Assembly (NCBI GenBank): GCA_020052975.1 | Contig: JAGVOC010000272.1 | Span: forward strand, 1 to 27,142 | Length of the DNA stretch: 27,142 nucleotides | Direction of reading: 5' to 3' | Source of the DNA: Desulfobacterales bacterium | Lineage (GTDB): Bacteria; Desulfobacterota; Desulfobacteria; Desulfobacterales; RPRI01 | Part shown: one piece after another, positions 8,340 to 27,142 of the stretch | How positions within the stretch are numbered: the first letter of the stretch is position 1 | How the letters are laid out: every line of letters begins with the position of its first letter | Made by a program: the position numbers and the translations under genes | The notes under the pieces: model-generated | Told to the model about the DNA's origin: nothing | Databases searched by the model: none | The model's input: only the letters and a program-made list of their open reading frames with translations

Positions 8340-8343
8340 CTCA

Positions 8344-10223: not shown

Positions 10224-10236
10224 TAAGTGAGCTCGG

Positions 10237-10250
10237 TTGCAGATCTGCAA
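10237..10250. promoter_or_regulatory. Perfect 14-bp dyad TTGCAGATCTGCAA in a 68-nt gap
   Basis: The only gap in the 6315-14119 run of tightly spaced genes holds this perfect palindrome with no loop, 13 bases after the Gfo/Idh stop and 41 bases before the SDR start. The absence of a loop and of a T-run fits a dimeric regulator site better than a terminator. No promoter hexamers are convincing beside it. Confidence 0.3.
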
Positions 10251-10291
10251 TCATCTCTTGTCGCGTTGTATTTGAGGAAACATAGTTAATC

Positions 10292-11131: not shown

Positions 11132-12330
11132 AAAAAAGCATTATTTTCATTGTAATTTATCCTTTTAATGACGACTATGCGCTTAAATATGGATTTGATA
11201 TAATTAGAAGTAGAGGATTTGAAATTATTATCCTCAATCTATTTAACGTATTATTCCCCAAGGAGATTACTGACAAGCTAAACTTATATCAGCAATTAGA
11301 TTTTGTTAACGGCATTGAACAGGTCATGGTAAAGGATGAAAAAGATTTCGTAAGCCGAATCAAAGCTGTCTCGGGCTGGAAAATTTCAGTGTTGGTAGTT
11401 TTTCCATACATAAAAGTATTGCGTCTCTTGAAAAAATCGCATCTTAATTATATCTTGCTTTTTTGTAATTCTTATCCTCCGTATCCAGGCACTCTGAAGG
11501 CGTTTGCAGAGAGGTTGAGTAATGCGTGCAAGCGCTTTTTTTCAGCACCTGTTAAAATGGTCACCACAGCTATATTATCCAGATTGCCTTATGCTTGGGC
11601 ACATGTCGATTACCCGAAATATGTGGTGTTAGGGTCAGATGTATGCCCCACCTGCACTATCCCAGCAGGAAAAAGCAAGGTAATAAAAGCGCATTCTTTT
11701 GATTACGACCGTGTTTTACGAAATGCATCTGTGTCAAAACCATCATATGTTCCGAATGAGGATTACTATGTCCATTTGGAATGTCCCCCGTGGGATACGC
11801 ATGACTATACACTTCTCAATCAAAAGGCTGTTTTGAAGAAGGAAGAATATGCTGCAATTATCAATACTTTTCACGACTGGCTTGAGAAAAGTACAGGCAA
11901 AAAAGTGATAATTGCTGCGCATCCTAAGCATACGCAAGAAGAAAATGTGTATGGCGGACGTCCCTTTGTTGTTGGTGCAGAACAGTTAGTGAAATACAGT
12001 AGTGGCGTTTTCTGTCACTACTCGGGGGCTATGAAATTTGCCGTTATTTATCGCAAGCCGATTTGCGTTACTTCAAGCAGGCATCTGGCCTGCGACCGGT
12101 ATTTTCAGACGAATCTTCATGCCAGCGCCAGTGGGATTGGAGCCGAGATCAATTTCATTGATACAGAAGATGACTATCGTGCATTGGGTAACAAAGGTTT
12201 TTTCTTTTATGACGAACACGCTTATGCCGAATATGAACGTAAATACATTACTTCCAGCAGATTTCAGAATCGTCTGTTATGGGAAATTGTGTTGGACGAA
12301 ATGCTGCGCGAGGAAGGAATAAGTGTATAA
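11122..12330 (+). CDS. Putative GT-B-like glycosyltransferase/polysaccharide biosynthesis protein
   Basis: 402 residues that I cannot place in a named family. The N-terminus (IIFIVIYPFNDDYALKYGFD) reads like the first strand and helix of a GT-B domain rather than a signal peptide. The C-terminal half has IIAAHPKH (H267) followed by YGGRPFV, EQLVKYSSGVFCHYSG and KFAVIYRKPI. This resembles the C-terminal donor-binding half of capsule/polysialyl-type transferases, where an HP motif is followed by a 'Ser...A...G/RKP' loop. ATG 11122 overlaps the SDR by 10 nt, with GTG 11128 as an alternative. The coding sequence is visibly AT-richer than the genes upstream, matching the two genes that follow. The role as a glycosyltransferase is inferred. 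Confidence 0.6.
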   Translation: MLVKKSIIFIVIYPFNDDYALKYGFDIIRSRGFEIIILNLFNVLFPKEITDKLNLYQQLDFVNGIEQVMVKDEKDFVSRIKAVSGWKISVLVVFPYIKVLRLLKKSHLNYILLFCNSYPPYPGTLKAFAERLSNACKRFFSAPVKMVTTAILSRLPYAWAHVDYPKYVVLGSDVCPTCTIPAGKSKVIKAHSFDYDRVLRNASVSKPSYVPNEDYYVHLECPPWDTHDYTLLNQKAVLKKEEYAAIINTFHDWLEKSTGKKVIIAAHPKHTQEENVYGGRPFVVGAEQLVKYSSGVFCHYSGAMKFAVIYRKPICVTSSRHLACDRYFQTNLHASASGIGAEINFIDTEDDYRALGNKGFFFYDEHAYAEYERKYITSSRFQNRLLWEIVLDEMLREEGISV

Positions 12331-14119
12331 CACTTTAAAGGCAGTTTTTATCACGCTTCCCCAGAGGGGCAACCCTTCTTTTTTCCCCCCGCTTGGTCCT
12401 CTGGCCGTGATGAATGCCCTGAAAAAGCACGGCTACGAGAATATTCACTTTTATAATATTGATGTTCTGAGACCTTCTCGCGAGGAAGCCATAGAGCATA
12501 TCGTATCACTGCGTCCAGATGTTGTTGCTATAAGCGCTCCCGTATCAACTGCTTATGATAACTGTCGTTTTTTTTCAAAAGAGTTAAAAAAAGTACTGCC
12601 AAACATAAAGATCATTCTCGGCGGAAATATGACGGCAAGCGCCGAAATCATCTTTAGAGGAACCGATGTAGATTATTGCATTATTGGCGAGGGCGAAAAG
12701 GTGATAGGCGAATTGTTTGATTGCATGCAATCAAACAATGACCCTGCCGATTTAAGTAAAATAAAGGGCTTGGCATATATGCTGGATGGTCGATTTGCCT
12801 GCACGGGATATACAGATCAGATACCGCAGCATCAAATATTTGATGTCGATTGGGACATGCTAGATGAACTGTCTGTTAAGCATTATTTCACGCCTTTAAA
12901 CGAATTGGATCCTTTGTCGGTTCGCTACAAATATTTCTTCTACGATGATATTTATGCACTGCAATCAAAAGGAACTGAATATGCTAAAAAAACAATAGCT
13001 ATTATGTCATGTTCAAAGGGCTGTATCGGCAGATGTACTTATTGTCATCGTTTTACCAAAGGCATACGGGTTGTTCCTGTTGATATTGTGATGATGAGAA
13101 TTAAAGAGCTTATTCATCGTTTTAATATCGGAGCCATTGAATTCTCGGATGAGTGTTTCGGTGTCAACAAACAATGGCTTGCCGATTTCTGTAAGGCCAT
13201 TGGCGGCTTAGATATTGTGTGGCGGGTTGGCGGTATGCGTGTCGATGCGGTGACCCCCGAAATAATAAAAATGATGAAAAACGCCGGCTGTCGGACGATT
13301 GTCTATGGAGTTGAAAGCGGTAGCGAACGAATTCTCAAAATAATGGAAAAAAAGGTTAGCATCCAGCAAAATATTAATGCCATACAGTGGACTGTAGAGG
13401 CCGGGTTATATACCATCCCTCAGCTTGTTATCGGAATGCCCGGTGAAACAACTGAAACAATTAAAGAAACAGCCAATTTTACCGCTAATGCCATAACTAT
13501 CAGCAACCGCCAGAATCCGGGAGAAGTCGGCATGACGTTTGCTCAGGCATTGCCGGGAACGCCGCTATACGAGTATGCGAGAAGCGTTGGCATTATAGGT
13601 GCCACACCGGAGGCGGAGGAGGAGTATCTCATTCGGATATCAGATAAGGACGCCGCTGATAGGCATTCGACCTTGAATTTTACTAAATATCCTCGACTGA
13701 TAATGCTCTCCTGGCCGCTGCTTATTCATATTATTGTATCTTACAGGTATGTATCCATTTTCGGGAAAATACATTTCCATAAAATACTATCAGCGGGACA
13801 TGAATCTGGTTATGGCTCACTTGCCTATGCTTTACGTTCTGGTCGTTACCGCAGTTTCCTTTCTGCACATCCGGGTGTTCTTTATCGTTTGCGGTGGTTC
13901 GTTTGGATCGTGCCGTTTTTGAATACATTGAAACTGGATGGATTTACAAAAACCTGGCGTCTTTTGCTAGAATTAATTGGGTGGCATATCCAATGCGTTA
14001 CCGGCAAGAATCATTCTTTTCCTTTTTTGTACAAATCTCTTCGCAAGATCCTTGCAGATGATATGGATAACGCATATTCCGGATCAAAAGAAATGGAAAT
14101 ACTGCGCAGAGGTCGATAG
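12323..14119 (+). CDS. B12-binding-domain radical SAM enzyme
   Basis: 598 residues. Residues 1-160 look like a cobalamin-binding domain of class B radical SAM proteins (FFPPLGPLAVMNALKKHGY, then RPDVVAISAPV, ILGGN, IGEGEKVIGEL). The [4Fe-4S] cluster motif is C234-xxx-C238-xx-C241 in CIGRCTYCHR, followed by the glycine-rich EFSDECFG and YGVESGSERIL strands of the partial TIM barrel. The last 150 residues are an unassigned helical, aromatic-rich domain. Class B members perform C-methylation or other radical steps such as ring or skeletal rearrangement. The GTG start at 12323 overlaps the upstream gene by 8 nt and has GAGGAAGGA before it. Its substrate is presumably a sugar or lipid-linked glycan of this cluster. 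Confidence 0.83.
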   Translation: MYNTLKAVFITLPQRGNPSFFPPLGPLAVMNALKKHGYENIHFYNIDVLRPSREEAIEHIVSLRPDVVAISAPVSTAYDNCRFFSKELKKVLPNIKIILGGNMTASAEIIFRGTDVDYCIIGEGEKVIGELFDCMQSNNDPADLSKIKGLAYMLDGRFACTGYTDQIPQHQIFDVDWDMLDELSVKHYFTPLNELDPLSVRYKYFFYDDIYALQSKGTEYAKKTIAIMSCSKGCIGRCTYCHRFTKGIRVVPVDIVMMRIKELIHRFNIGAIEFSDECFGVNKQWLADFCKAIGGLDIVWRVGGMRVDAVTPEIIKMMKNAGCRTIVYGVESGSERILKIMEKKVSIQQNINAIQWTVEAGLYTIPQLVIGMPGETTETIKETANFTANAITISNRQNPGEVGMTFAQALPGTPLYEYARSVGIIGATPEAEEEYLIRISDKDAADRHSTLNFTKYPRLIMLSWPLLIHIIVSYRYVSIFGKIHFHKILSAGHESGYGSLAYALRSGRYRSFLSAHPGVLYRLRWFVWIVPFLNTLKLDGFTKTWRLLLELIGWHIQCVTGKNHSFPFLYKSLRKILADDMDNAYSGSKEMEILRRGR

Positions 14120-15994: not shown

Positions 15995-16040
15995 TGTGCT
16001 ATTCACCGGTAATTAAATATAGATTCCAACCATCCATTTC

Positions 16041-16097
16041 CTGTAAATACAGGCATTGTGCTGCTTTATTGACATGTTTAATTGCCAGAGCAATAAG
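16041..16097 (+). promoter_or_regulatory. Candidate promoter with upstream dyad before the aldolase operon
   Basis: In the 201-nt spacer 15995-16195, TTGACA (16069-16074) is followed by a 17-nt spacer and AATAAG (16092-16097), a perfect -35 with a 4/6 -10. Just upstream, CTGTAAATACAG (16041-16052) is an inverted repeat with 5-bp arms and could be an operator. Downstream, GAAAAAA and TTTTTTC form arms at 16151-16170. This is the natural place for a second transcription start in the cluster. Confidence 0.4.
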
Positions 16098-16195
16098 TGG
16101 CTCAAGATAAAAAAACAGGAGAAAGCGAAAAGCGCTTGAAAAAGTTGTATGAAAAAACGCTCATTTTTTCAATTATTATCGAAAGGCATTAAGAG

Positions 16196-16990
16196 ATGAC
16201 AATAAAGGAAAAGCTTCGTATTGGAGAGCTTACTATTGGTTCCTGGATTACCCTGGCCCATCCGGCGATTGCAGAAATCATGGCAAGGGCTGGTTTTGAT
16301 TGGCTAACGGTTGATCTTGAACACAGCGTCATAACAATTCGTGAAGCAGAGGAATTAATCCGGGTGATTGATCTTTGTGGCGTTGTACCTTTGGTCCGTC
16401 TTTCTGCCAATGATCCCGTCCAGATCAAACGTGTCATGGATGCGGGTGCCCATGGTGTTATTGTGCCGATGGTGAATTCCGTAGAAGATGCGAGAAAGGC
16501 AGTTGAATCTGTGCGCTACCCTCCTGACGGGAGGCGCGGTGTAGGGTTGGCCCGCGCCCAGGGTTATGGGAGTAGTTTTGAGAAGTATAAAGAATGGCTA
16601 AATCAAGAATCAATTGTAATCGTTCAGGTTGAGCATATAAAGGCAGTGGAAAATTTAGATGCTATCTTATCTGTAGAGGGTGTGGATGGCTTTATAGTAG
16701 GTCCCTATGATTTATCCGGGTCACTTGGAATACCGGGACAGTTTGATAATGAATTGATGATCGAGGCGATGAGCAAGATTCGGACCTTCATGAAAAGCTC
16801 TTCAAAAATTCCAGGTTTTCATGTGGTTGAGCCTGATGTTGATCAATTACAGCAGCGTGTGCAAGAGGGTTATCGGTTTTTAGCCTATAGTGTGGATATC
16901 CGCATGTTAGATACATGCTGCTGCTCAGCAATAAAGAAGATTAAGGTCCAAAGCGGAATAGGCATTCGACGATCTCTTTCAAAACGATAG
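16196..16990 (+). CDS. HpcH/HpaI-family pyruvate aldolase
   Basis: 264 residues of the class II, metal-dependent HpcH/HpaI (2,4-dihydroxyhept-2-enedioate/2-keto-3-deoxy-acid) aldolase fold. The order of landmarks is IGSWITLAHPAIAEIMARAG, VDLEHS (40-44, with catalytic H43), LVRLSANDP with the substrate Arg, VIVPMVNS, E146 in VQVEHI and D172 in VGPYDLS, the two metal ligands. Family members reversibly join pyruvate to an aldehyde, giving 4-hydroxy-2-keto-3-deoxy acids. In a glycan cluster that also encodes a KdsB-like cytidylyltransferase, it may build a ulosonic acid from pyruvate rather than PEP, or degrade or shorten one. AAAGG lies 9 nt before the ATG. It is the first gene after a promoter-bearing spacer, and 24 nt separate it from the best start of the next gene. 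Confidence 0.85.
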   Translation: MTIKEKLRIGELTIGSWITLAHPAIAEIMARAGFDWLTVDLEHSVITIREAEELIRVIDLCGVVPLVRLSANDPVQIKRVMDAGAHGVIVPMVNSVEDARKAVESVRYPPDGRRGVGLARAQGYGSSFEKYKEWLNQESIVIVQVEHIKAVENLDAILSVEGVDGFIVGPYDLSGSLGIPGQFDNELMIEAMSKIRTFMKSSSKIPGFHVVEPDVDQLQQRVQEGYRFLAYSVDIRMLDTCCCSAIKKIKVQSGIGIRRSLSKR

Positions 16991-17014
16991 ATGAACTATA
17001 AGGGAGGCATAATG

Positions 17015-18586
17015 ATGAATGGCAATGGGAGCAAACGGCAGGTTCAGAAGAATCCAAAAGATTTTCGGGTCCTTTTCGTCTATCCAAACATGCAGATGAG
17101 CTCTCTTGCCCCGATTAGCATTGCCACCCTCTCCGGATTGTTGAGGGAAAATGGTTTTGATGTCGATCTCTTTGATACAACTTTATATATCACGCCGTAT
17201 TCAACCGATACAAATAAAGAGAAAGTCTATCTTTCTAAAGTTCGACCTTTCGACTGGGAGGAACGCGGCATAGTCCCAAAAACAGGAGATGTGCTGGTGG
17301 ATTTTGGACGCAAGGTAGGTGAGTACAATCCGGATCTGATTGCGTTTACGGTCTTCGAGAATTCGTGGATGATGACAGATGCACTCCTTCGTTCGTTGAG
17401 GCTTCCTGTTCTTACAATTGTCGGGGGGGTGTTTGCAACCTTTGCGCCAGATGTCGTTTTGGAGCATCCAAAAGTGGATTACGTGTGCCGCGGAGAGGGA
17501 GAATGGTCGCTTCTCGCCTTATGTAAGGCTCTCTGTGCTGGAAAATCGACGGACAATATTCTGAATATATGGGCAAAGGTTGATGGGACGATTGTTCGAA
17601 ATGCTATTGGTAAGGTTCAAAAGCTTGATGACTTGCCATTGCCGGATTGGTCCATCTTCGAAAAGCAGAGCTTCTATCGGCCTATGCAGGGACATGTGTG
17701 GCGTACTATCGGAGTTGAGACTCAGCGTGGATGTCCATTTGGATGCACATACTGTAACTCTCCAGCAAATGCAGAACTCTATAAAAGTGAGCAGGCAGGA
17801 AAATATTACCGCAAGAAATCAATCAAACGCGTTGCTGCGGAGTTGGAGAATGCGAGAAAAAGCGTGAATCCGGAACTGATCTATTTTGTCACTGACAATT
17901 TTTTGGCGATGACAGATTCTGAATTCGATGAATTCGCAGAAATGTACCAAGACTATCGTATCCCTTTCTGGATGAACACGCGCGCAGAAACAGTGGATAT
18001 ACGACGGGCTAAAGGACTGGACCTCATGAATTGTCTGCGCATGAATATTGGGATCGAACACGGAAATGAGAAATTCCGTGCTGAAGTTCTGGAGCGCCAC
18101 GTTCCGACGGCTTCATACCTGAAGGCCTTTCGGGCGTGTTCGGGACGGAAGTTTGTGTGTGTTGCAAACTCGATAATCGGTTTTCCGGATGAAACTCGGG
18201 ATTTGGCCTTTGATACCATTGAACTTAATCGTGCATTGCCTGAGGACATAGAGGCTACGGGTGCGTTTATCTTCACGCCATATCACGGCACAAAATTGAG
18301 GGAACGAGCAGTTCGGAAGGGATACCTACAGCCCAGCACCATTTGTTCGGCGACGGTGACGAATTCCAGCATACTCAATATGCCATTGTTTACGCCGGAG
18401 GTGATCAAGGGGCTTTGTCGGGTCTTTAGTTTCTATACCAAGATGCCGCAGAGTCGCTGGCCTGAAATTGCTCACGCGGAGTTGTTCGACGATGTGGGAG
18501 AAATGGTGTTCCAAAAACTCTCACATGAATATAAAGAGGAGTATGTAGCCACAAGCAAAATGCCTGTGATTCCAAAGACTGACTAA
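17015..18586 (+). CDS. B12-binding-domain radical SAM enzyme (second copy)
   Basis: About 523 residues. The N-terminal cobalamin-binding region contains APISIATLSGLLRENGFDV, PDLIAFTVFEN, TIVGG and VCRGEGEWSLLALCKAL. The radical SAM cluster motif is C240-xxx-C244-xx-C247 in CPFGCTYCNSP, followed by IYFVTDNFLA and NIGIEHGNEKFR. The start was chosen at ATG 17015 because GGGAGG (17002-17007) lies 7 nt upstream; ATG 17012 and ATG 16991 are in frame but are too close to, or upstream of, that site. It is only distantly similar to the other radical SAM protein (12323-14119) and lacks its long C-terminal domain. Likely roles are C-methylation or another radical transformation of a sugar or lipid intermediate. 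After its stop comes a 270-nt spacer. Confidence 0.83.
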   Translation: MNGNGSKRQVQKNPKDFRVLFVYPNMQMSSLAPISIATLSGLLRENGFDVDLFDTTLYITPYSTDTNKEKVYLSKVRPFDWEERGIVPKTGDVLVDFGRKVGEYNPDLIAFTVFENSWMMTDALLRSLRLPVLTIVGGVFATFAPDVVLEHPKVDYVCRGEGEWSLLALCKALCAGKSTDNILNIWAKVDGTIVRNAIGKVQKLDDLPLPDWSIFEKQSFYRPMQGHVWRTIGVETQRGCPFGCTYCNSPANAELYKSEQAGKYYRKKSIKRVAAELENARKSVNPELIYFVTDNFLAMTDSEFDEFAEMYQDYRIPFWMNTRAETVDIRRAKGLDLMNCLRMNIGIEHGNEKFRAEVLERHVPTASYLKAFRACSGRKFVCVANSIIGFPDETRDLAFDTIELNRALPEDIEATGAFIFTPYHGTKLRERAVRKGYLQPSTICSATVTNSSILNMPLFTPEVIKGLCRVFSFYTKMPQSRWPEIAHAELFDDVGEMVFQKLSHEYKEEYVATSKMPVIPKTD

Positions 18587-18856
18587 CAGATTCGAAAGTG
18601 GTGGTGACTATGGAAGAGAAACTCTCATGACGGTCCTGTCATAAAGGATGATGAAAATTGACAGATGTGCTTACTCTTTGGCGGGCGGGTGCTTATCATA
18701 TCACTGAATACATTTTCAAGGAGGGAGGAGAAAATTTTCCGGCGCAAAAATTCCGGGATGATTTTAAATTTTTATGCGGCCGTAATTTTTAATATGGGTG
18801 AAGGATCTATTTTACACTCCTCTTTTGAGAAGATGGATAAGTCGTAGGAGATAATC

Positions 18857-19642
18857 ATGAATATAGTTGCGATTATACCAGCCCGTATGGCTTCAAGCCG
18901 TTTTCCCAACAAACCTATGGTTGCGATTTTGGGTATACCCATGATCGGACATGTTTACTACCGAAGCAAGATGTGTACATGCCTTGCCGATGTTTGGGTG
19001 GCGACCTGCGATCGTGAGATTGCCATTTACATTGAATCCATTGGCGGCAAAGCTGTCATGACTGCGGGCACCCACCAGCGGGCCTCTGACCGGGCCGCAG
19101 AAGCCCTTCTTGAAATTGAGAAACTAACGGGTAATTCTATAGACTATGTAGCTATGATACAGGGCGACGAACCGATGCTGGCGCCACAGATGATCGATGA
19201 ACTTGTTGCTCCGACACAGAATGATCCCAGGCTGCAGATTACCAACTTGATTACGAAGATTGATTCTCCGGAAGAATTCGAAAACGCGAACGCGGTCAAA
19301 GTAGTCCTTGACCAGCAAGGTTTCGCGCTTTATTTTTCGCGGGAACCCATCCCATCGAGAAAGAAATATTCGGGCGATGTTCCAATGTGGAAACAATTGG
19401 GGCTCATCCTTTTTAGCCGCAAGGCCCTGCTGGACTATACAAAAATGACCCCAACCCCTCTTGAAATCATCGAATCAGTCGATATGAATCGCTTCCTTGA
19501 GCACGGCATAAAGATCAAGATGGTACCAACCGACCATCGGATTTTCGGGATCGATGTTCCGGAGGATCTGCGATCCGTTGAGCCTCTGCTCAGGAAGGAC
19601 CCGCTAACGGAGAAATACCTGCATCCAAAGAGAACGATATGA
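18857..19642 (+). CDS. KdsB-like CMP-ulosonate cytidylyltransferase
   Basis: 261 residues, the expected size for the 3-deoxy-manno-octulosonate cytidylyltransferase family. It shows IPARMASSRFPNKP (7-20, nucleotide loop), IGHVYYRSK, VATCDREI, GGKAVMTAGTHQRASDRAAEAL, and IQGDEPML with the metal-binding Asp in QGDEPM (102-107), then FSREPIPS and QLGLILFSRKALLDY. This is the classic order for KdsB. The housekeeping kdsB is normally near lpxK or elsewhere. The position here, followed by sugar-tailoring enzymes, suggests a dedicated paralogue that activates a Kdo-related acid for this glycan. AGGAG precedes the ATG at 18857, and its stop overlaps the next start (ATGA). No KdsA homologue is visible in the window, and the HpcH/HpaI aldolase upstream is the only other acid-forming enzyme near it. 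Confidence 0.85.
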   Translation: MNIVAIIPARMASSRFPNKPMVAILGIPMIGHVYYRSKMCTCLADVWVATCDREIAIYIESIGGKAVMTAGTHQRASDRAAEALLEIEKLTGNSIDYVAMIQGDEPMLAPQMIDELVAPTQNDPRLQITNLITKIDSPEEFENANAVKVVLDQQGFALYFSREPIPSRKKYSGDVPMWKQLGLILFSRKALLDYTKMTPTPLEIIESVDMNRFLEHGIKIKMVPTDHRIFGIDVPEDLRSVEPLLRKDPLTEKYLHPKRTI

Positions 19643-20619
19643 AAGAAGAAGATATTCGAAAACGGGACGTTCTGAATCGTTATCTTGAACTTGTTCGCGA
19701 GGATGCGGCGAGGCTTTTCAGGGATCGATCAGCATTTCAAAAGATCGACTGTCCCGCCTGTGGTAGTCAGGAGCTATTGAATCAATTTTCAAAAATCGGT
19801 TTCAATTATGTGCAGTGCAAGGAATGCGAAACTTTGTTCGTCAATCCCCGGCCAGCCTATAAGGATCTGATGAACATATATGTTGATTCGCCATCGACCC
19901 GGTTCTGGGTGGCGGATTTTTTCCTCCCTATGGCAGATGTGCGGCGGGAGAAGATTTTCAGCCCCCGGGCGGAATTCATTGCCGAACGTTTTCCGGATAT
20001 GAGATCGGGCAGGATGGCTGATATTGGCGCTGGGTTCGGTCTCTTCCTGGAAGAAATGAAATTACGATGGCCCGCATCAGATATTGTGGCTATCGAGCCT
20101 TCTATAGACATGGCAAAAATATGTCGGGAAAAAGGGTTGACGGTTCTGGAAACTACACTTGAGGATGTCGATCCCGATGAACGATTCGATCTTATGACGG
20201 CCTTTGAACTCTTTGAACATCTCCATGACCCACTTCCCTTCGTTGAAAAGGTGTACAATCTTTTAAACCCCGGCGGCTACCTGTTCCTCACGACGCTAAA
20301 TGGCCTTGGATTCGATGTTCAGATCCTGTGGGAGCGGGCGAAAAGTGTCTTTCCCCCGCATCACCTTAATTTCTTCAATCCACGTTCGATGGAAACACTA
20401 CTAGTGCGGAAGGAATTCGAAATTGTTGAGATTGCTACACCCGGACAGCTTGACTGGGACATCATAGAAGGGGCCTACCAGCATGACGGGCTGGATCCGG
20501 GACGTTTCTTTAAGACCGTTTCTCGATACGGCACTGCTGAGGCGAAGCGGGATTTACAGCAATGGATTCGGGCAAATAATTTCAGTTCCCACATGCGGGT
20601 CATCGCAAAGAAAAGATAA
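19639..20619 (+). CDS. SAM-dependent methyltransferase with zinc ribbon (second copy)
   Basis: 326 residues. Two CxxC pairs (C38/C41 in CPACGS and C60/C63 in CKECET) form a likely zinc ribbon, followed by FVNPRP. A class I methyltransferase domain then has MADIGAGFGLF (D128-G134), FELFEHLHDP and LLNPGGYLFLTT. The HHLNFFNPRSMETLL segment is characteristic of this zinc-ribbon methyltransferase group in polysaccharide loci. It shares domain order with the enzyme at 4381-5250 but has a long extra N-terminal helix. It overlaps the KdsB-like gene by 4 nt and is followed after one base by the Gfo/Idh gene. Methylation of the CMP-activated acid or of a derived sugar is inferred. Confidence 0.8.
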   Translation: MKEEDIRKRDVLNRYLELVREDAARLFRDRSAFQKIDCPACGSQELLNQFSKIGFNYVQCKECETLFVNPRPAYKDLMNIYVDSPSTRFWVADFFLPMADVRREKIFSPRAEFIAERFPDMRSGRMADIGAGFGLFLEEMKLRWPASDIVAIEPSIDMAKICREKGLTVLETTLEDVDPDERFDLMTAFELFEHLHDPLPFVEKVYNLLNPGGYLFLTTLNGLGFDVQILWERAKSVFPPHHLNFFNPRSMETLLVRKEFEIVEIATPGQLDWDIIEGAYQHDGLDPGRFFKTVSRYGTAEAKRDLQQWIRANNFSSHMRVIAKKR

Positions 20620-20620
20620 T

Positions 20621-21658
20621 ATGGATATTCAAAAACTGAGGGTCGGCATAGCGGGTTACGGTGTCGTCGGGAAGAGAAGACGGCAGTTTATCGATCTCAA
20701 CTCCAATATGGTCACCGTAGCTGTGAGTGACAGCAACTTCGATCAGGAAGGAACAGCGACGGACGGAGTGAAATTCTACCCAACCTATCACGGGCTTTCC
20801 AACGAAAAGCTTGATGTCCTCTTTGTCAGCCTTCCCAACTATCTTGCTGCTGAGGCAACTATCGCAGGGCTCGAAAGAGGTCTTCATGTATTCTGTGAGA
20901 AGCCGCCGGGAAGGACTGTTCAGGATATCCGGGATGTCATCGCTACTGAAAAAAAGCAACCCCATCTTAAATTGAAGTATGGATTCAATCATCGGTACCA
21001 TGAATCTGTAAAAGAAGCGAAAAAGGTCATCGAATCAGGCCAATATGGTGAAATTATCAATCTGAGGGGAATTTATGGCAAAAGCAGCATCATCCCCTTC
21101 GACAAGGGCTGGCGCGCAGAACGGCAATATGCCGGGGGTGGAATACTTCTTGATCAGGGAATCCACATGCTTGACATGATCTGCTATTTCGCTGGTGACT
21201 TTGAAGAGGTAAAGAGTTTCGTTTCCAATAATTATTGGCATCACGACGTGGAGGATAACGCTTACGCCATCATGAGGAATCGCGAGGGCTGTGTCGCTAT
21301 GCTGCACTCAACGGCCACCCAGTGGCAGCACAAGTTCAGACTCGAGATCACCTTGCGCGATGCTCTGATGGAGCTGTCGGGCATTCTCTCCGGCACAAAG
21401 AGCTATGGGGATGAACGGCTGACGATTATACCCAAAAAGGACGGTTCGGCGGTTGGTTCCTTCTTGGAGGTAACTAATTCGTATCTCGATGATAACTCCT
21501 GGCAATGCGAAATTAATGAATTTGCCGACATCATTATAAACAATAAAGTTGTTGAAAATGGAAACAGCGCTGACGCCCTTAAAGTGATGGAACTGGTCTA
21601 TAGAATCTATTGTGCTGATAGCAGGTGGCAAGAAGTTTTCAATATTCAGTGTCCGTAA
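20621..21658 (+). CDS. Gfo/Idh/MocA-family NAD(P)-dependent dehydrogenase (second copy)
   Basis: 345 residues from ATG 20621. The frame is open upstream to about 20483, but that part overlaps the methyltransferase and the Rossmann fold begins right after ATG 20621. Motifs are VGIAGYGVVGKRR (GxGxxG at 12-17), FVSLPNYLAAEAT, and FCEKPPGR with E93-K94-P95. GGGILLDQGIHMLDM provides the His typically near the active site. Family members oxidise or reduce hydroxyl/keto groups of sugars and inositols, and inositol dehydrogenase (IdhA/MocA) is the founding type. That is relevant because a cyclase-like gene is four genes downstream. The spacing of one base after the previous stop indicates coupled translation. 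Confidence 0.86.
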   Translation: MDIQKLRVGIAGYGVVGKRRRQFIDLNSNMVTVAVSDSNFDQEGTATDGVKFYPTYHGLSNEKLDVLFVSLPNYLAAEATIAGLERGLHVFCEKPPGRTVQDIRDVIATEKKQPHLKLKYGFNHRYHESVKEAKKVIESGQYGEIINLRGIYGKSSIIPFDKGWRAERQYAGGGILLDQGIHMLDMICYFAGDFEEVKSFVSNNYWHHDVEDNAYAIMRNREGCVAMLHSTATQWQHKFRLEITLRDALMELSGILSGTKSYGDERLTIIPKKDGSAVGSFLEVTNSYLDDNSWQCEINEFADIIINNKVVENGNSADALKVMELVYRIYCADSRWQEVFNIQCP

Positions 21659-21678
21659 AAAGGAGTATGGAAAACGAC

Positions 21679-22290
21679 ATGAACAATATTGACAGGTTGT
21701 GTAATAATTCGCAAAGTGCGGGTGCGTTTGCTCATGGTTACTTCAATTATCTGAAGCAGGCGTTGGATTCCATTACGCCAGCGTCAATTGACAAGCTTGT
21801 GAAAGAGTTTGAGAACGCGCGGGAAACCGGCAATACGATATTTGTTGCCGGAAATGGCGGTTCTGCCACCACGGCAACAAGCATGGCAAATGACATCGGT
21901 TTCGATGTCATCAAAAAAGCCGGTACAGACAAACCGTTCAGGGTATTAGCGTTGACCGATAACACATCAGTGATCACGGCAATTGCAAATGATGTAGGGT
22001 ATGAAAATATTTTCCTGAATCAACTGAAGATTCACTATCGCCAGGGTGACAAGTTATTGGTCATATCCGCAAGCGGCAATTCTCCAAATGTGGTTGTTGC
22101 GGCCGAATGGGTAAGGCAGCAAGGAGGGCGTGTTATAAGTTTTGTCGGGTTCACGGGAGGCAAATTGAAAGAAATTTCCGATATTGTTGTTCACGTCAGA
22201 TCTGAAACAGGGGAATATGGACCGGTAGAGGACGCCCATCTCATACTAAACCATATTCTTGCCCACTGGTTTCAGTGTAGGTTGAGATAA
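21679..22290 (+). CDS. SIS-domain sugar-phosphate isomerase, GmhA-like
   Basis: About 203 residues, close to the 190-200 expected for GmhA-type phosphoheptose isomerases. AGNGGSATTATSM (57-69) is the phosphate loop, ALTDNTSVITAIAND and ISASGNSPNV are the further SIS strands, and VEDAHLILNHIL carries the His corresponding to GmhA's catalytic His. At the position of GmhA's catalytic Glu this protein has D72 (MANDIG), unlike the SIS domain at 2466-3536, which keeps Glu. The start is uncertain: AGGAG (21661-21665) is 1 nt before ATG 21667 and 13 nt before ATG 21679. Possible substrates include sedoheptulose 7-phosphate or another ketose phosphate. A partner role with the downstream cyclase-like enzyme is inferred. 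Confidence 0.78.
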   Translation: MNNIDRLCNNSQSAGAFAHGYFNYLKQALDSITPASIDKLVKEFENARETGNTIFVAGNGGSATTATSMANDIGFDVIKKAGTDKPFRVLALTDNTSVITAIANDVGYENIFLNQLKIHYRQGDKLLVISASGNSPNVVVAAEWVRQQGGRVISFVGFTGGKLKEISDIVVHVRSETGEYGPVEDAHLILNHILAHWFQCRLR

Positions 22291-22312
22291 TGCTGAATAT
22301 TGAAGAGGATCT

Positions 22313-23242
22313 ATGGCAGCCAAGATTCTCATAGGACCGTCATCGTTTGCCGCAACCGACAAAACCCCCATGAACCGACTGATAGCAGCGGGGTACGAGG
22401 TTGTAGACAACCCCTATAAGCGAAAACTGACAAAAGAGGAACTTTTGAATCTTTTGAAGGATGATGTCGTGGGCCTTATTGCCGGGCTGGAAACCATAGA
22501 CCGGGAGGTTTTGGAGAAATCCCATATTCAGGTGGTTTCCCGTGTTGGTGCAGGTGTTTCCAATGTAGATATCGAAGCTGCCCGCGATCTGGGTATTCGT
22601 GTTTTCAACACTCCCGATGCCCCAACCAACGCCGTAGCGGAACTCACCATAGGTGCACTGTTAAGCCTACTGCGGATGATTCCCCAGATGGATCAGGCGC
22701 TACATGAAGGGCAATGGCAGAAAAGGATGGGGCTTCAACTCCAGGGCAAGACGGTGGTCATCATCGGATTCGGAAGGATTGGACGGAGAGTTGCAGAGTT
22801 GCTTTCCCCCTTCGGTGTAAAGATTTTGCTTGTTGATCCATACGTTAATGAAAGCACCTGCGCCGGATACCGGAAAGCAACCCTCCAGGCGACACTGCCT
22901 GAAGCCGATATTATCACCATCCACAGTAGCGGCCAAGATTGCATTATCGGAGAGAAGGAATTTTCCTGCATGAAGAAGGGCGTTTATCTGCTCAATGTTG
23001 CGCGGGGAGGTGTCATTTCAGAGAACGCCTTAGTAAAAGCCATTGAAGATGGCACCGTTGCGGGTGCTTGGCTCGATACCTTCGAGGAAGAACCCTACAA
23101 GGGGCCGCTGTGCAGTTACCAGAATGTCATTTTGACACCCCATGTGGGGTCATACACGGCCGAGTGCCGCTTGCAGATGGAAAACGAGGCTGTAGATAAC
23201 CTGCTCAACTATTTGAAGAGGCCGAAAGACGAAACATTATGA
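22313..23242 (+). CDS. D-3-phosphoglycerate-dehydrogenase-like 2-hydroxyacid dehydrogenase
   Basis: 309 residues, the short form of the D-isomer-specific 2-hydroxyacid dehydrogenase family without a C-terminal ACT domain. Visible elements are SRVGAGVSNVDIEAA, the dinucleotide motif G152-F-G154-R-I-G157 followed by D173 (NAD preference), the catalytic Arg R231 in NVARGGVI, E260 in DTFEEEP and H277 in LTPHVGS. The enzyme interconverts a 2-hydroxy acid and a 2-keto acid. In this setting it is more likely a glycan-pathway enzyme acting on a sugar or ulosonic acid than a serine-pathway enzyme, as its neighbours on both sides are sugar enzymes. GAAGAGGA precedes ATG 22313, and its stop overlaps the next start (ATGA). 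Confidence 0.83.
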   Translation: MAAKILIGPSSFAATDKTPMNRLIAAGYEVVDNPYKRKLTKEELLNLLKDDVVGLIAGLETIDREVLEKSHIQVVSRVGAGVSNVDIEAARDLGIRVFNTPDAPTNAVAELTIGALLSLLRMIPQMDQALHEGQWQKRMGLQLQGKTVVIIGFGRIGRRVAELLSPFGVKILLVDPYVNESTCAGYRKATLQATLPEADIITIHSSGQDCIIGEKEFSCMKKGVYLLNVARGGVISENALVKAIEDGTVAGAWLDTFEEEPYKGPLCSYQNVILTPHVGSYTAECRLQMENEAVDNLLNYLKRPKDETL

Positions 23243-23991
23243 AGATTGATTTTCAAGGCCAAACGGTTCTCGTGACAGGGGCGACACGGGGAATGGGAAA
23301 ACAGTTTGCAGATGACTTTGCCAAACTCGGTGCCAATCTGATCCTGACTGGGATGGACAAGGACAAGATAGAAACACTGAACTGTGAGGCAGAACAGGAC
23401 AAGCAATCGTTCAGAAAATACTATTCCGTCGATTTTACCAACGCCGAAAGCACAAAAACTTTTATAGAGGCCATTGAGGCATATCAAAAGATCGATGTGT
23501 GCATCAACAATGCGGGGATAAACCGGATCAACTTCATCGACGAGACCTTGCTTGAAGATTGGAAAGATATTCTAAGTGTGAACCTTGAAGCTCCTTTCAT
23601 GATCACCCGGGCCGTAAGCCGGCTCATGAAAAAAAACCGATATGGACGGATCATCAATATTGCCTCGATATTCGGGATCATCAGTAAGGCCAAACGTTCT
23701 ATATACACAACAACGAAATTCGGTCTCCGCGGGCTTACAGTGTCCTCTGCCATAGAGCTTGCGCCTTATAATGTTCTGGTCAACTCAGTCTCCCCCGGTT
23801 TTGTGCTTACGGAGCTTACGAAAAACATTCTGAGTGAGGCGGAGATGGAGGATCTTGCCCGTCAGGTTCCCATGGGCCGTTTTGCCGAGCCCGATGAGAT
23901 CAGTAGAGTTGTTCTCTTCTTGGCGAGTTCCTTAAATACCTACCTTACAGGGCAGAACATCGTTGTAGATGGCGGTTTTGTCAATGTCTGA
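23239..23991 (+). CDS. FabG-like short-chain dehydrogenase/reductase (second SDR)
   Basis: 250 residues, the usual length for a classical SDR. TGATRGMG (13-20) is the cofactor motif, NNAGIN follows strand 4, N-x-A-S-I-F precedes the catalytic Y156/K160 in YTTTK, and NSVSPGFVLTEL and YLTGQNIVVDGG complete the pattern. It overlaps the preceding dehydrogenase by 4 nt and the following cyclase-like gene by 8 nt, so all three are probably produced together. The likely substrate is a keto intermediate produced or consumed by the neighbouring dehydrogenase and cyclase-like enzymes. A fatty-acid role is unlikely because no acyl carrier protein or other fab gene is nearby. Confidence 0.87.
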   Translation: MKIDFQGQTVLVTGATRGMGKQFADDFAKLGANLILTGMDKDKIETLNCEAEQDKQSFRKYYSVDFTNAESTKTFIEAIEAYQKIDVCINNAGINRINFIDETLLEDWKDILSVNLEAPFMITRAVSRLMKKNRYGRIINIASIFGIISKAKRSIYTTTKFGLRGLTVSSAIELAPYNVLVNSVSPGFVLTELTKNILSEAEMEDLARQVPMGRFAEPDEISRVVLFLASSLNTYLTGQNIVVDGGFVNV

Positions 23992-25060
23992 TTCTTTGCA
24001 TATCAAGTCTCTCTTTAGAAATTACGACGTCCATTTTATTGGAGATTTCACACTGCTGCTTCAAGGCCTTGTTGATCAACATGCATTTTTCGTCATCGAT
24101 TCTATCATATGGGAAATATATAAAGAAAATCTAAAAGACGTAATTCCTGACGGGCGCATTCTCATCGTCGAAGCCAATGAAAACAATAAGACGCTCGACA
24201 AATGCCGGGAAATTATTGAGACACTTGTTGACAGGCAGATGCGGCGTAACGAAAAGCTCGTGGCTGTGGGTGGTGGTATTATCCAGGATGTAACCGCATT
24301 CAGCGCTTCCATTATTTACAGAGGTATCGAATGGGCCTTTTTTCCAACGACGCTTCTTGCCCAGGCCGATAGTTGCATCGGAAGTAAAACATCCATCAAT
24401 CTCGGTGGCAAGAAGAATCTCATTGGCAATTTCTACCCACCCTCGAATGTATTTATCGATACGACGTTCCTTGCGTCCCTTTCCGTCGATGACATAAAAT
24501 CGGGTATCGGCGAGATATTGCACTACTACATTTACGCCGCGAGCCCTCTTTTCGATGAACTTATCAATGATTACGCAATGATAATCCGAGACCGGGACTT
24601 TCTTATAAAGCACATCCGGGAAAGCCTGAAGATCAAGAAATCTGTGATTGAAAATGACGAATTTGATCGAGGAGAACGAAATAAATTTAATTATGGTCAC
24701 ACCTTCGGTCATGCCATTGAATCCGTCACAAATTACGCAATCAACCATGGTCAAGCAGTAACAATAGGTATGGATTTGGCAAACTATGTTTCCATGAAAA
24801 TAGGATTTATGAGTCCAGATATTTTTCAGGATATTCATTCAAAACTATCTTCCAACTTTCCCGATTACGACTGGGACAAAATCAATCTTGACCTATATCT
24901 TGCCCTTCTTTCAAAGGATAAAAAGAATGTTGGTGATAACGTTGGGTGTATTCTTTCTGAAGGCCATGGCATGCTTATTAAACAGCAGTTGCCCAAGGAT
25001 AATCATTTCAAGGAGATGATCCATGCGTATTTCATAGAGGAAGTACGTAAGAAAAGATGA
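23984..25060 (+). CDS. 3-dehydroquinate-synthase-like sugar phosphate cyclase
   Basis: About 358 residues from ATG 23984 (an in-frame ATG at 23969 is the alternative). The whole motif series of dehydroquinate synthase is present: GGGIIQD (96-102), YRGIEW, PTTLLAQADSCIGSKTSIN, GKKNLIGNFY, metal ligand E177 in GEILH, RNKFNYGHTFGHAIE with H239 and H243, NHGQAV and a late SKDKKNVG. One difference from bona fide AroB is that the metal-binding E is followed three residues later by H180, where AroB has Lys (ExxK). The Arg and Asn of the RNxxN stretch, associated with carboxylate-bearing substrate in AroB, are kept. The family makes carbocycles from ketose phosphates (DHQ, EEVS, DOI and desmethyl-4-deoxygadusol synthases). 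A dedicated carbocycle-forming role in this glycan is inferred; aromatic biosynthesis is unlikely here because no other aro gene is present. Confidence 0.83.
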   Translation: MSDSLHIKSLFRNYDVHFIGDFTLLLQGLVDQHAFFVIDSIIWEIYKENLKDVIPDGRILIVEANENNKTLDKCREIIETLVDRQMRRNEKLVAVGGGIIQDVTAFSASIIYRGIEWAFFPTTLLAQADSCIGSKTSINLGGKKNLIGNFYPPSNVFIDTTFLASLSVDDIKSGIGEILHYYIYAASPLFDELINDYAMIIRDRDFLIKHIRESLKIKKSVIENDEFDRGERNKFNYGHTFGHAIESVTNYAINHGQAVTIGMDLANYVSMKIGFMSPDIFQDIHSKLSSNFPDYDWDKINLDLYLALLSKDKKNVGDNVGCILSEGHGMLIKQQLPKDNHFKEMIHAYFIEEVRKKR

Positions 25061-26970
25061 TTAGCAAGGATCAGAACATTCATGAAAATAAACTTTGGGT
25101 GTGCTGGGTTAAACCAAATTGCTTGCCTTCTGCAAACATCAGGATATTAAGTTTTTTAAAGCCGTCAGATGAAGAGATTTTCATTCAAAGCATATCTGAA
25201 AATAATCTGATTTCTGGTCGAAGTATAGCACAAGAGGTAAAAGATGATGCCTTGAAGTTATATACGGAGGTTGTTGCACACATTGGGGCAGATAGAATCG
25301 GCAAAAACTCAAGCCTTCGTATGTTATTGAAGTCAAGTAATGGAAACAGTCTCTGGTGGTATCATCCGGTTTCTTTCAAGGATTTCGAGACAGATCCTAC
25401 TTTTAATCGAATAATACAAATTTTGGTTATTGATAAGATTGCATCAGAAGATAACTTTGAAAATATAGTCTTTTGGGGTGCTGATGATGCAGTTGCGAAT
25501 GTCCTAAAGTCAAAATATCAGGTTGAATGTAAAGGCACAAAGCATAAATTGGCAGTTCTCGGATATCTCAGAGCTTTCGCCTCACGGTTAACACAATTAA
25601 TTGCACATGTTTATCATTGGTATCTAATTAGAAATGAAGTACCGGATACTACTTTCACACCAGACGTAGTGTTTGAAGGATTTTGGGATTGGAGTGTTCG
25701 CCCAAGTACACGGGAGGAAGGTTTAGATGATCGGTACTTCAAATCCCTACCCAATCTTTTGGAGCAACAAGACCTTAAAGCCGCATGGTTGTTATGGTTT
25801 GATCCACATTCAGAGCCTCGATTAAACAATCGATCAGCAACAGACGTACTGAATAGAGCGCGCCCATACAATAATCTAATTTTTTTGCAGAAATATCTGA
25901 AAATAACGGATATCGTTAAAGCGTTTTCCAATTTTAGCCCCGCAATAATATACCATTCAATTGCGAGATCTATTAGCTTTAAAGATCTTTATAAAAATAA
26001 TGGATTAAACTTGTTCCCAATATTTAGAGATCAATTGTCATACCATTTCATATCATCTACGTTACCTCACTATAATCTTGTAGAAAAAGCATGCGTCACC
26101 GCATTCGCAAAGTTCAGGCCAAAGATCGCTTTAACCTTTTTAGAAACGTTCCCTTACTCCCGGGCATTTTACGCAGGTGCAAGACAGGGATCCCCGGAAA
26201 CGAAACTGGCAACAATGCAACATGCAAGTTATAGCCGGGAGAAAACATTTGTTCGCCTTGATCCTGAAATAGAATTTCATGGGAAGCCGGATAATTGTTC
26301 TATACCAAAACCTGACTGTGTCTTTGCAATGGGTGAACTGGGAAAAGAAATCTTCCAGGAATACGGTTTTGCAACCCATGACATTTTTTTGACAGGCTCG
26401 GCGAGATATGAGCACATCCGAACAGATCCTATTGTAAAAGCTCAAAGAACATCTCCAAATACCTTTAACCTATTGATGGTGACCTCTCTTGATCGAGATA
26501 GCGAGATGGACATGGTCGATGCGCTGTATTTTGCTTCAAAAGACTTACCTTGCATAAAGCTATTTTTACGTAACCACCCCTTCGCCCGTATGGATGAACA
26601 TCCCCTTTTCCAACCCATGAAGGAGCGTATCACGATAACGAACGGCCCATTCGAAGATGATCTTCAGAACACAGATTTGATCATGTTTTCCTATTCAACG
26701 GTTGCAGAAGAAGCCTTAATCCGCGGCGTCCCTGTTTGGCAATGGTGCTCTGCCGGCTATAATGCGTCTGCGTTTAGAGAAATTGGAGTTATTCCAGCAT
26801 TCTATTCTGTATCAAAATTGAGGGACAGCTTAAAAGAATTCATCGCCAACCCCGTCCCATTTATCCTTGAAGAGAAAACCCGTAATAACGTACTTAATAA
26901 ATGTTTTTATAAAGCAGATGGAAAAGCGAGTGAAAGGATCAAGAGTAAAATAATCGACTTACTGAATTGA
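25057..26970 (+). CDS. Large GT-B-like surface carbohydrate biosynthesis protein
   Basis: 637 residues with no signal peptide. I do not recognise the N-terminal 350 residues. The C-terminal part has a GT-B/CDP-glycerol-transferase-like order: TMQHASYSREKTF, then VFAMGELGKEIFQEYGF and FLTGSARYEHI, then FLRNHPFARMDEH (about residue 510), then FSYSTVAEEALIRGVPVWQW (about 544). 'TGSPRYD' followed by 'HP' and 'S-x-x-x-E-A-x-x-x-G-x-P' is the common signature of capsule and teichoic-acid-type transferases. Its ATG overlaps the cyclase gene's TGA, so it ends the operon. The DNA is AT-richer than the KdsB-to-SDR block upstream. It is similar in size and general plan to the protein at 517-2469, but I see no close sequence identity. 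Transfer of one of the unusual sugars is inferred. Confidence 0.7.
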   Translation: MISKDQNIHENKLWVCWVKPNCLPSANIRILSFLKPSDEEIFIQSISENNLISGRSIAQEVKDDALKLYTEVVAHIGADRIGKNSSLRMLLKSSNGNSLWWYHPVSFKDFETDPTFNRIIQILVIDKIASEDNFENIVFWGADDAVANVLKSKYQVECKGTKHKLAVLGYLRAFASRLTQLIAHVYHWYLIRNEVPDTTFTPDVVFEGFWDWSVRPSTREEGLDDRYFKSLPNLLEQQDLKAAWLLWFDPHSEPRLNNRSATDVLNRARPYNNLIFLQKYLKITDIVKAFSNFSPAIIYHSIARSISFKDLYKNNGLNLFPIFRDQLSYHFISSTLPHYNLVEKACVTAFAKFRPKIALTFLETFPYSRAFYAGARQGSPETKLATMQHASYSREKTFVRLDPEIEFHGKPDNCSIPKPDCVFAMGELGKEIFQEYGFATHDIFLTGSARYEHIRTDPIVKAQRTSPNTFNLLMVTSLDRDSEMDMVDALYFASKDLPCIKLFLRNHPFARMDEHPLFQPMKERITITNGPFEDDLQNTDLIMFSYSTVAEEALIRGVPVWQWCSAGYNASAFREIGVIPAFYSVSKLRDSLKEFIANPVPFILEEKTRNNVLNKCFYKADGKASERIKSKIIDLLN

Positions 26971-26990
26971 TATTAAATATTTCAACTAAT

Positions 26991-27009
26991 CCGCCGACGT
27001 AGTCGGCGG
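26991..27009. repeat. Perfect palindrome CCGCCGAC-GTA-GTCGGCGG
   Basis: An 8-bp perfect stem with a 3-nt loop, 21 nt after the last gene of the cluster. It has the same architecture and almost the same arms as the palindrome at 71-89. The stem differs at the third pair (A-T to G-C), changed on both arms. There is no T-run after it. It could be a dispersed palindromic repeat that also acts as a transcript 3' end. Confidence 0.6.
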
Positions 27010-27101
27010 TGGGGAGCGCTGGTCTGGAAAAAATGTACAGTTATTTAAGTGGTAAAGTTGCTCTAAACTGAAATAAAGTAACAGAAAGGAGCAGCGGGAA
27101 G

Positions 27102-27142
27102 ATGAAGAAATTGAGAAGGAATCACGGAGCAGCGTTTAAAGC
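27102..27142 (+). mobile_element. 5' end of an IS3-family transposase OrfA (runs off the window)
   Basis: The last 41 bases encode MKKLRRNHGAAFKA after a good ribosome site (AAAGGAG, 27086-27092). Short basic openings of the form 'M(K)xxRRNHxxxFKA' are characteristic of IS3-family OrfA proteins. Only 13-14 residues are available, so subgroup and intactness cannot be judged. The element's terminal inverted repeat should lie between about 27010 and 27080, but I could not define it without the other end. Confidence 0.6.

Follow-up and report, generated by a model that had tools for sequence, protein, structure and literature searches.

The pathway to 3-deoxy-D-manno-octulosonic acid (Kdo) is KdsD-KdsA-KdsC-KdsB, and carbocyclic sugars occur in a few bacterial glycans. 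Bradyrhizose is one such carbocyclic sugar, according to the available part of one report (PMC4743980), and no assigned biosynthetic gene set for carbocyclic glycan sugars (caryose, bradyrhizose) was found in the partly available literature that we examined. An orphan clade of sugar phosphate cyclases is represented by EboD of the ebo operon. In the excerpted description (PMC5133447), EboD is typically annotated as dehydroquinate synthase, belongs to a conserved putative operon with a UbiA-type prenyltransferase, a TIM-barrel protein, and hydrolases, and has sedoheptulose 7-phosphate as its proposed substrate. Here, we describe a block of genes at positions 16196-25060 of a 27,142-nucleotide contig from a Desulfobacterales bacterium (JAGVOC010000272.1; "the window" means this whole contig). 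In order, the block encodes an HpcH/HpaI-type aldolase (HpcH), a B12-binding radical S-adenosylmethionine (SAM) protein, a KdsB-like cytidine monophosphate (CMP)-sugar-acid synthetase, a methyltransferase (MT3), a Gfo/Idh dehydrogenase (Gfo), an SIS-domain protein, a 2-hydroxyacid dehydrogenase (2HADH), a short-chain dehydrogenase/reductase (SDR), and a relative of the 3-dehydroquinate synthase (DHQS) AroB, the AroB-like protein.

The reading that we favor, although with less than even confidence, is that the block, as part of a surface-polysaccharide locus, makes a CMP-activated non-Kdo 2-keto (ulosonic-type) acid and that its AroB-like/SDR module eliminates phosphate, with probable ring closure. 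The cassette to which the block belongs resembled the Kdo pathway in having a KdsB homologue, a sugar-phosphate isomerase-like gene, and, in some variants, a phosphatase. It differed in having no KdsA, in carrying HpcH in only part of the loci, and in its changed KdsB pocket, and the window's copy had the SDR-AroB-like pair and no phosphatase gene. The absence of KdsA had been part of the original prediction, and no KdsA family was among the NCBIfam and Pfam matches listed for the ten proteins encoded at 16196-26970. The AroB-like protein was, by score, a member of the NCBIfam family TIGR04425 (AroB-related putative sugar phosphate phospholyase, cyclizing). This entry is a "hypothetical equivalog," to which a cassette survey, an active-site comparison, and a cyclase-free variant are added here. 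Openly licensed papers yielded no literature under the TIGR04425 accession or the term "sugar phosphate phospholyase." The original prediction also held that this gene set had no assigned pathway, and our search of openly licensed papers (mainly titles and the starts of abstracts) likewise found no paper on it. As with EboD, the AroB-like protein belonged to an orphan cyclase clade in a conserved putative operon, but the partner genes differed.

The AroB-like protein scored 445.3 bits against TIGR04425 (cut-off, 400) and 265.8 bits against the AroB model TIGR01357 (cut-off, 305), and it retained the DHQS fold. In a quick tree, which had no EboD, EVS, DDGS, or amino-DHQS rows, a single branch (SH-aLRT support, 100; length, 1.34) separated all 35 AroB-like rows from AroB. 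AroB was represented by 25 rows, of which 22 were drawn from the 49 found in genome loci and 3 came from plasmids, and five of the 35 AroB-like rows scored 367 to 390 bits, which is under the TIGR04425 cut-off. Several homologues in the TIGR04425 clade were annotated as 3-dehydroquinate synthase; these proteins are probably not shikimate enzymes.

Eleven residues of the Staphylococcus aureus DHQS are given as important for binding of its substrate, 3-deoxy-D-arabino-heptulosonate 7-phosphate (DAHP), in the available part of PMC6262012. By spacing and alignment, these contacts mapped to D134, K140, N150, E182, H185, K223, R237, N241, H244, H248, and K318/319 of the window's protein, which kept ten of the eleven; S. 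aureus Lys181 corresponded to His185. The ten other contacts were identical to those of AroB in every row with a letter at the position (K318/319 was kept in 33 of 35 rows, and the remaining two had gaps), and position 185 was His in 18 rows and Lys in 17. Compared with AroB, then, the window's protein shared the fold and ten contacts, and it differed in its separate clade, its score, its SDR partner, and the Lys-to-His change at position 185 in its subclade. K223, R237, and N241 were kept in 35/35 AroB-like rows and in 49/49 AroB rows from genome loci. At the equivalent sites, two annotated 2-deoxy-scyllo-inosose synthases kept the Lys and had A/G and E in place of R237 and N241, and two annotated sedoheptulose 7-phosphate cyclases had M, K/A, and D. 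The Met/Asp/Pro pattern of the latter at the K223, N241, and H248 sites was not present in the clade, which had K, N, and H in 35/35 rows. Arg and Lys presumably hold the DAHP carboxylate in DHQS, and we read the retention of K223, R237, and N241 as a retained carboxylate-binding site. Because these Lys, Arg, and Asn contacts were kept in all 35 rows, the substrate of the AroB-like enzyme is probably a phosphorylated 2-keto acid.

The KdsB-like protein passed two subfamily models (NF009905, 290.7 bits against a cut-off of 255; NF003952, 270.2 against 193) and failed a third, NF003950 (200 against 234), as well as the equivalog models NF003948 (172.8 against 281) and TIGR00466 (148 against 155.2). 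Its motifs read HQRASDR, KQLGLI, and ESVDMNR, versus HQSGTER, RHLGIY, and EMLEQLR in Escherichia coli. Among the KdsB-like rows, motifs on the nucleotide and metal side (PAR, QGDEP, and the D of the last motif) were largely kept. In all 11 main-type rows (the window and loci L002, L003, L004, L006, L007, L008, L011, L013, L101, and L136), the His of (R/K)H(L/V)GIY was Gln, Glu-Gln of E(M/S)LEQLR was Asp-Met, and the Ser of the SGT motif was Arg (RAS in 6). A second type (L001, L100, L113, and L135) showed a distinct pattern, with RI(Y/G)G and ESCDSNR. The canonical rows in this comparison were E. coli KdsB and KpsU only, and the comparison omitted L010 and L012 (outside the cluster), the second open reading frame (ORF) of L005 (split frame), and the second matches of L008 and L009. 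The KdsB-like frame of L005 (4964-5778) was split over two overlapping ORFs, either naturally or through an assembly error. We take the changed positions to be the Kdo-contacting, sugar-side residues. Because these sugar-side motifs were changed in a shared way, the acid activated by the KdsB-like enzyme is probably not Kdo.

The block is a conserved cassette across metagenome-assembled genomes (MAGs) of several phyla, not a chance assembly. The original prediction treated it as a linked module, and the same families were indeed linked, not scattered, in relatives. An alignment-based scan of genome contigs yielded 14 loci, 13 of which were marked as MAGs by record title; carriers, also by record title, include Syntrophaceae, Smithella, Chlorobiaceae, Bacteroidetes, Aminicenantes, Chloroflexi, Brocadiaceae, Gemmatimonadaceae, and Alphaproteobacteria. 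Over-cut-off TIGR04425 matches were present in eight of the first ten genomes examined and, in six samples, in 6/149, 4/297, 7/247, 2/251, 2/246, and 4/349 genomes. The centre genome of each sample was chosen as a carrier and was counted among the matches, except in the 4/349 sample (centre at 370 bits), so the true frequency of TIGR04425 is lower than these counts.

We then used tblastn to survey 34 loci for neighbors within 9.5 kb of the AroB-like gene. The sample was non-random, as 14 loci came from close-relative patterns and the remainder from the TIGR04425 search, and several contigs ended inside the 9.5 kb, which makes gene absences weak. Five loci that scored under the TIGR04425 cut-off (L012, L013, L111, L112, and L117; 367 to 390 bits) were kept, as were two without TIGR04425 scores (L007 and L009); L014 (a partial AroB-like gene at a contig edge) and L096 (same contig as L002) were omitted. 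Single-linkage clusters gave slightly different counts, and the tblastn counts are used here.

The SDR gene directly preceded the AroB-like gene in 33 of the 34 loci (the exception was L117), followed in frequency by Gfo (20), 2HADH (20), SIS (19), KdsB (15), HpcH (10), and MT3 (10, four of them at 26 to 39% identity). The radical SAM protein had two weak matches only (25% and 23%). A cytidylyltransferase was found in 20/34 loci: KdsB-like in 15 and PseF/NeuA-like in 5 (L104, L107, L109, L110, and L115). This distribution supported the CMP-activated acid, one of the two readings in the original prediction, as the likely product. Among these 20 loci, Gfo was present in 19 (not L008), 2HADH in 19 (not L013), and SIS in 17 (not L013, L100, or L110). 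In four loci (L001, L005, L100, and L113), no HpcH was seen near the cyclase, and a HisC-like aminotransferase was encoded together with an additional Gfo/Idh protein. In L107 (7590-9455) and L104 (7588-9485), a YhcH/N-acetylneuraminate-anomerase-like protein and a PF04199 cyclase-family (arylformamidase-like) protein were encoded beside the AroB-like gene, as identified by family search in L107 and by similarity or cluster in L104.

Ten other loci (L097, L099, L102, L103, L105, L106, L108, L111, L112, and L117) carried an acetolactate-synthase-like thiamine pyrophosphate (TPP) enzyme and/or a distant HpcH-type aldolase (29.2 bits to PF03328; gathering threshold, 25). The SDR gene was present in all of these except L117, and no Gfo, SIS, 2HADH, KdsB, or NeuA was seen in any of the ten. 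Several held genes that we take to be of the cytidine diphosphate (CDP)-dideoxysugar type, named by eye from sequence, and we liken such loci to yersiniose-type loci. The likeness to yersiniose-type and bradyrhizose loci is that an SDR-AroB-like pair stands beside a TPP enzyme and CDP-dideoxysugar-type genes in these other loci; the window's block, in contrast, had neither a TPP enzyme nor CDP-dideoxysugar genes. The TPP/aldolase loci represent a second, unassigned cassette, whose product could be a branched or carbocyclic deoxysugar. We considered a strict rule tying His185 to cassette type and rejected it: the TPP/aldolase type was absent among the 18 His185 loci, but Lys185 occurred in both backgrounds. 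His185 required one change on the tree. The four remaining loci were L009, L098, L114, and L116, three of which lay near contig ends. In plasmids, three proteins of the AroB-like clade gave no tblastn match of at least 60% identity; the best listed rows, at about 29 to 34%, were annotated AroB (where annotated) or related cyclases. No phage match to window positions 16000-27142 was found in a near-mode search, and no match to the AroB-like gene was found in E. coli genomes in a distant-mode search.

In a variant of the cassette, no cyclase was found. When the window's Gfo was searched against 149 genomes (E up to 1e-40), 7 genomes matched, five of them at 56 to 84% identity; three of the five carried TIGR04425, and two (G109 and G110) did not. 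The other TIGR04425 genomes of the 149 (G086, G106, and G153) had no Gfo match of that kind, and when another sample, of 70 genomes, was searched with Gfo (E up to 1e-75), only its centre genome, G002, matched. The G110 locus (L136) encoded HpcH (58% identity), MT3 (57%), KdsB (49%), Gfo (59%), and 2HADH (56%), and then an inositol-monophosphatase-type protein that was 45% identical to the one in the G109 locus (L135). No SIS, SDR, or AroB-like match was found within the 18 kb searched around L136. The L135 locus encoded a methyltransferase, an aminotransferase, a second Gfo/Idh protein, Gfo, KdsB, SIS, 2HADH, the phosphatase, and a TIGR04326-type protein (51% identical); it lay well inside a 79-kb contig, and no SDR or AroB-like gene was found there. 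The KdsB pocket motifs of L135 and L136 equaled those of cyclase-bearing relatives, and their Gfo and 2HADH proteins fell among those of cyclase-bearing loci in trees in which several forks were without strong support. In addition, two proteins (P0049 and P0065) among the best 120 of 7911 homologues had the AroB-like protein fused C-terminally to an inositol-monophosphatase domain, which was assigned by family search in P0049. Because the cyclase-free loci matched their relatives and these fusions exist, the phosphatase and the SDR-AroB-like pair probably act in one pathway, and each may to some extent replace the other. The acid met by KdsB looks similar with and without the cyclase, and the cyclase seems to form an optional branch of the pathway. 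Inositol as a shared precursor of the cyclase-free loci was not supported: a search of 22 genomes found inositol-phosphate synthase (PF07994) in 4, and neither G109 nor G110 yielded a match.

From the observed gene set, its linkage, the DHQS-type contacts, and the KdsB motifs, we infer a set of substrates, a step order, a ring closure, and a transferase role. The core enzymes (HpcH, Gfo, 2HADH, methyltransferase, and KdsB-like) would build, oxidize, methylate, and activate the acid. Specifically, HpcH would join pyruvate to an aldehyde to give a 3-deoxy-2-keto acid, and Gfo and 2HADH may supply oxidation steps. In the window, the SIS, SDR, and AroB-like module would handle the phosphate in place of a phosphatase. 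The AroB-like enzyme would take a phosphorylated 2-keto acid in its pyranose form through oxidation with NAD, phosphate elimination, and reduction, and most likely would close a carbocycle, as dehydroquinate synthase does. The SDR would reduce a ketone after this step, and the product would pass to the GT-B-fold transferase encoded at 25057-26970. It is possible, though we hold it still more tentatively, that the product is a carbocyclic or terminally deoxygenated ulosonic acid made by a DHQS-type enzyme acting on a non-shikimate sugar-acid phosphate, in replacement of a Kdo-like phosphatase step. Under this proposal, the product would be, to our knowledge, the first cyclase-dependent CMP-activated glycan acid, and SDR-AroB-like would be a portable two-enzyme module that is also used in the TPP-enzyme/CDP-dideoxysugar-type loci.

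Several points weigh against the favored pathway. Its substrate and its product are both predictions from sequence. If the ulosonic acid itself were converted to a carbocycle, KdsB would have no anomeric centre to activate, so the ring would have to be on another part of the molecule, or no closure would occur, and the unchanged KdsB motifs in loci without the cyclase leave room for a non-cyclizing role. Half of the 20 cytidylyltransferase loci (10) showed no HpcH. The original prediction had offered a CMP-activated acid built from pyruvate and a carbocyclic sugar as alternatives; these proved not to separate cleanly, with the CMP-acid part holding up and the pyruvate part limited by this HpcH count. 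Since the KdsB motifs were the same in the two cyclase-free loci, a carbocycle may not be required for the CMP-activated part. In the case of the cyclase-free loci, the L136 contig ended 1.8 kb past the phosphatase gene, so genes beyond it could be missed, and G109 and G110 are both possibly incomplete genomes. The P0049 and P0065 fusions indicated that phosphatase and AroB-like protein are not strict alternatives. The inosose synthase and sedoheptulose cyclase comparators were two proteins each. Finally, SIS matches (E up to 1e-25) occurred in 14 of 149 genomes. Four were at 53 to 90% identity (G001, G006, G035, and G109), and the ten others were at 36 to 44%; eight of these ten had no over-cut-off TIGR04425 match (G106 and G153 had one). 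Because SIS relatives occur in genomes without TIGR04425, the family is not cassette-specific. In two of the eight (loci L137 and L138), the SIS gene had a sugar nucleotidyltransferase-like gene as its neighbor, and no match to any further cassette gene was found.

Because a carbocycle formed from the ulosonic acid itself would lack an anomeric centre, we retained two other explanations. The first, which we consider somewhat unlikely, is that the AroB-like enzyme carries out the first DHQS steps without ring closure and yields a methyl ketone; the SDR would reduce this to a terminally deoxygenated ulosonic acid for CMP activation. The near-constant SDR partner (33/34 loci) fits this idea, and the identical KdsB motifs with and without the cyclase suggest that the activated end need not change. 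The phosphatase of L135 and L136 also occupied the place of SDR-AroB-like, as if both act on the phosphate end. However, nearly all DHQS contacts were kept, and DHQS chemistry closes the ring readily. The sole changed contact, His185, was found in only 18 of 35 rows and gives no account of a clade-wide loss of closure.

The second explanation, which is unlikely, is that two pathways lie side by side, with HpcH, KdsB, and the methyltransferase making a CMP-ulosonic acid and SIS, 2HADH, SDR, and AroB-like making an unrelated cyclic unit of the same polysaccharide. The Gfo-SDR-AroB-like and HpcH-KdsB genes of L013 were about 4 kb apart, as such a division would predict, and the AroB-like gene occurred without KdsB in the ten TPP/second-aldolase loci. 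Yet Gfo, SIS, and 2HADH were unseen in those ten and were found together in the twenty cytidylyltransferase loci, the gene order was interleaved, and the cyclase-free loci retained Gfo and 2HADH with KdsB.

It is very improbable that sedoheptulose 7-phosphate or glucose 6-phosphate is converted to a neutral product, either a cyclitol or a carbocyclic sugar (valiolone- or inosose-like). The GmhA relationship of the SIS protein is consistent with such a product, as is the best NCBIfam match of Gfo, iolG, which at 87.6 bits was far under the cut-off of 355. On the other side, R237 and N241 (and K223, relative to the sedoheptulose cyclases) were DHQS-like in all 35 rows, unlike in the annotated cyclases, two of each, and the PF07994 result given above was also unfavorable. 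An ordinary shikimate AroB located in a polysaccharide locus by chance can hardly be credited: the DHQS fold and contacts were retained and three of ten genomes (G003, G004, and G005) had no second AroB-type match, most simply because of incompleteness, but the protein scored under the aroB cut-off and over the TIGR04425 cut-off, formed a separate clade, and was accompanied by another, lower-scoring AroB-type match in 7/10 genomes (with an internal stop codon in two of the seven).

As shown in Table 1, nine intact genes filled the block, and the gene that follows overlapped the AroB-like gene. All eight genes named in the original prediction were present, intact, and on the plus strand at the positions given; its gene list was right for these eight families and left out the radical SAM gene. 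Overlaps of 4 bases joined KdsB to MT3, 2HADH to SDR, and AroB-like to the following gene, and the SDR/AroB-like overlap was 8 or 23 bases, depending on the AroB-like start codon. The only gap of more than 25 bases was the 270 bases located 5' of the KdsB-like gene.

Table 1. Coordinates and family assignments of the genes in the block and of the gene that follows it
Feature	Coordinates	Strand	Family evidence
HpcH/HpaI-type pyruvate aldolase (HpaI/GarL/YfaU relatives)	16196..16990	+	PF03328, 131.7 bits (gathering threshold, 25)
B12-binding radical SAM protein, outside the conserved cassette	16991..18586	+	PF02310 and PF04055
KdsB-like CMP-sugar-acid synthetase, altered sugar pocket	18857..19642	+	NF009905 and NF003952 over cut-off
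SAM methyltransferase MT3, N-terminal Cys cluster (by eye)	19639..20619	+	PF13489
Gfo/Idh/MocA dehydrogenase	20621..21658	+	PF01408 and PF22725
SIS-domain sugar-phosphate isomerase-like protein, GmhA-related yet distinct	21679..22290 (alternative start, 21667)	+	
D-2-hydroxyacid dehydrogenase, phosphoglycerate dehydrogenase-like (2HADH)	22313..23242	+	PF02826 and PF00389
SDR dehydrogenase	23239..23991	+	PF13561/PF00106
AroB-related sugar phosphate phospholyase	23984..25060 (ORF also opens at 23969)	+	TIGR04425
TIGR04326-related protein, GT-B fold at residues 200-637	25057..26970	+	Below TIGR04326 cut-off

HpcH belonged to its family by Pfam score and by the motifs VR, EH, (Q)xE, and GPYDLS, which we take to be catalytic and which were conserved across nine aligned rows, the window included. 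Its score against TIGR02311 was 185.2 bits (cut-off, 368.8), and its best PDB matches were 3qz6 and 2vws. Family motifs were strongly conserved in 2HADH (20 rows), SDR (32), Gfo (21), and HpcH (9), and 2HADH scored 225.2 bits against TIGR01327 (cut-off, 454). The SIS protein had been predicted to be a GmhA-like isomerase. The relationship was upheld (91.6 bits against gmhA TIGR00441; cut-off, 209.45), but Ser, Asp, and Glu stood at the His, Glu, and Gln positions of GmhA, which we take to be its catalytic residues. The GmhA His was retained in the SIS copies of L011, L104, L107, L109, L113, L115, and L116, and the motif G(E/D)YGxxED was common to cassette copies. For the protein encoded at 25057-26970, which has some 200 extra residues at its N terminus, 61 homologues were found, counting the record of the window itself. 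Its best matches were UDP-N-acetylglucosamine 2-epimerases, followed closely by glycosyltransferases, and it can be called no more than a candidate transferase for the sugar.

Upstream of the block, the window held a first acid module (2466-11131), which encoded a KdsC-like phosphatase fused to a GmhA-like SIS domain, a NeuB-type synthase (3537-4379), two methyltransferases, a PseF-like cytidylyltransferase, a class III aminotransferase (glutamate-1-semialdehyde aminomutase-like), a sugar-phosphate epimerase-like protein, a Gfo/Idh protein, and an SDR. The KdsC-GmhA fusion retained the GmhA His, Glu, and Gln. A second radical SAM protein, labeled by eye only, was encoded at 12323-14119.

The AroB-like family was already known as an NCBI model with no assigned function. 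What is new here is the set of kept DAHP contacts in the cyclase clade, the pairing with the SDR, the non-Kdo KdsB pocket, and the cyclase-free variant. We place the cassette with the pathways for CMP-activated sugar acids, and the chance that it involves new chemistry is substantial. It provides a concrete enzyme set in which the likely substrate of the cyclase is narrowed to a carboxylate-bearing phosphate, and the related cassettes that carry a phosphatase, and in which no cyclase was found, provide a natural control.

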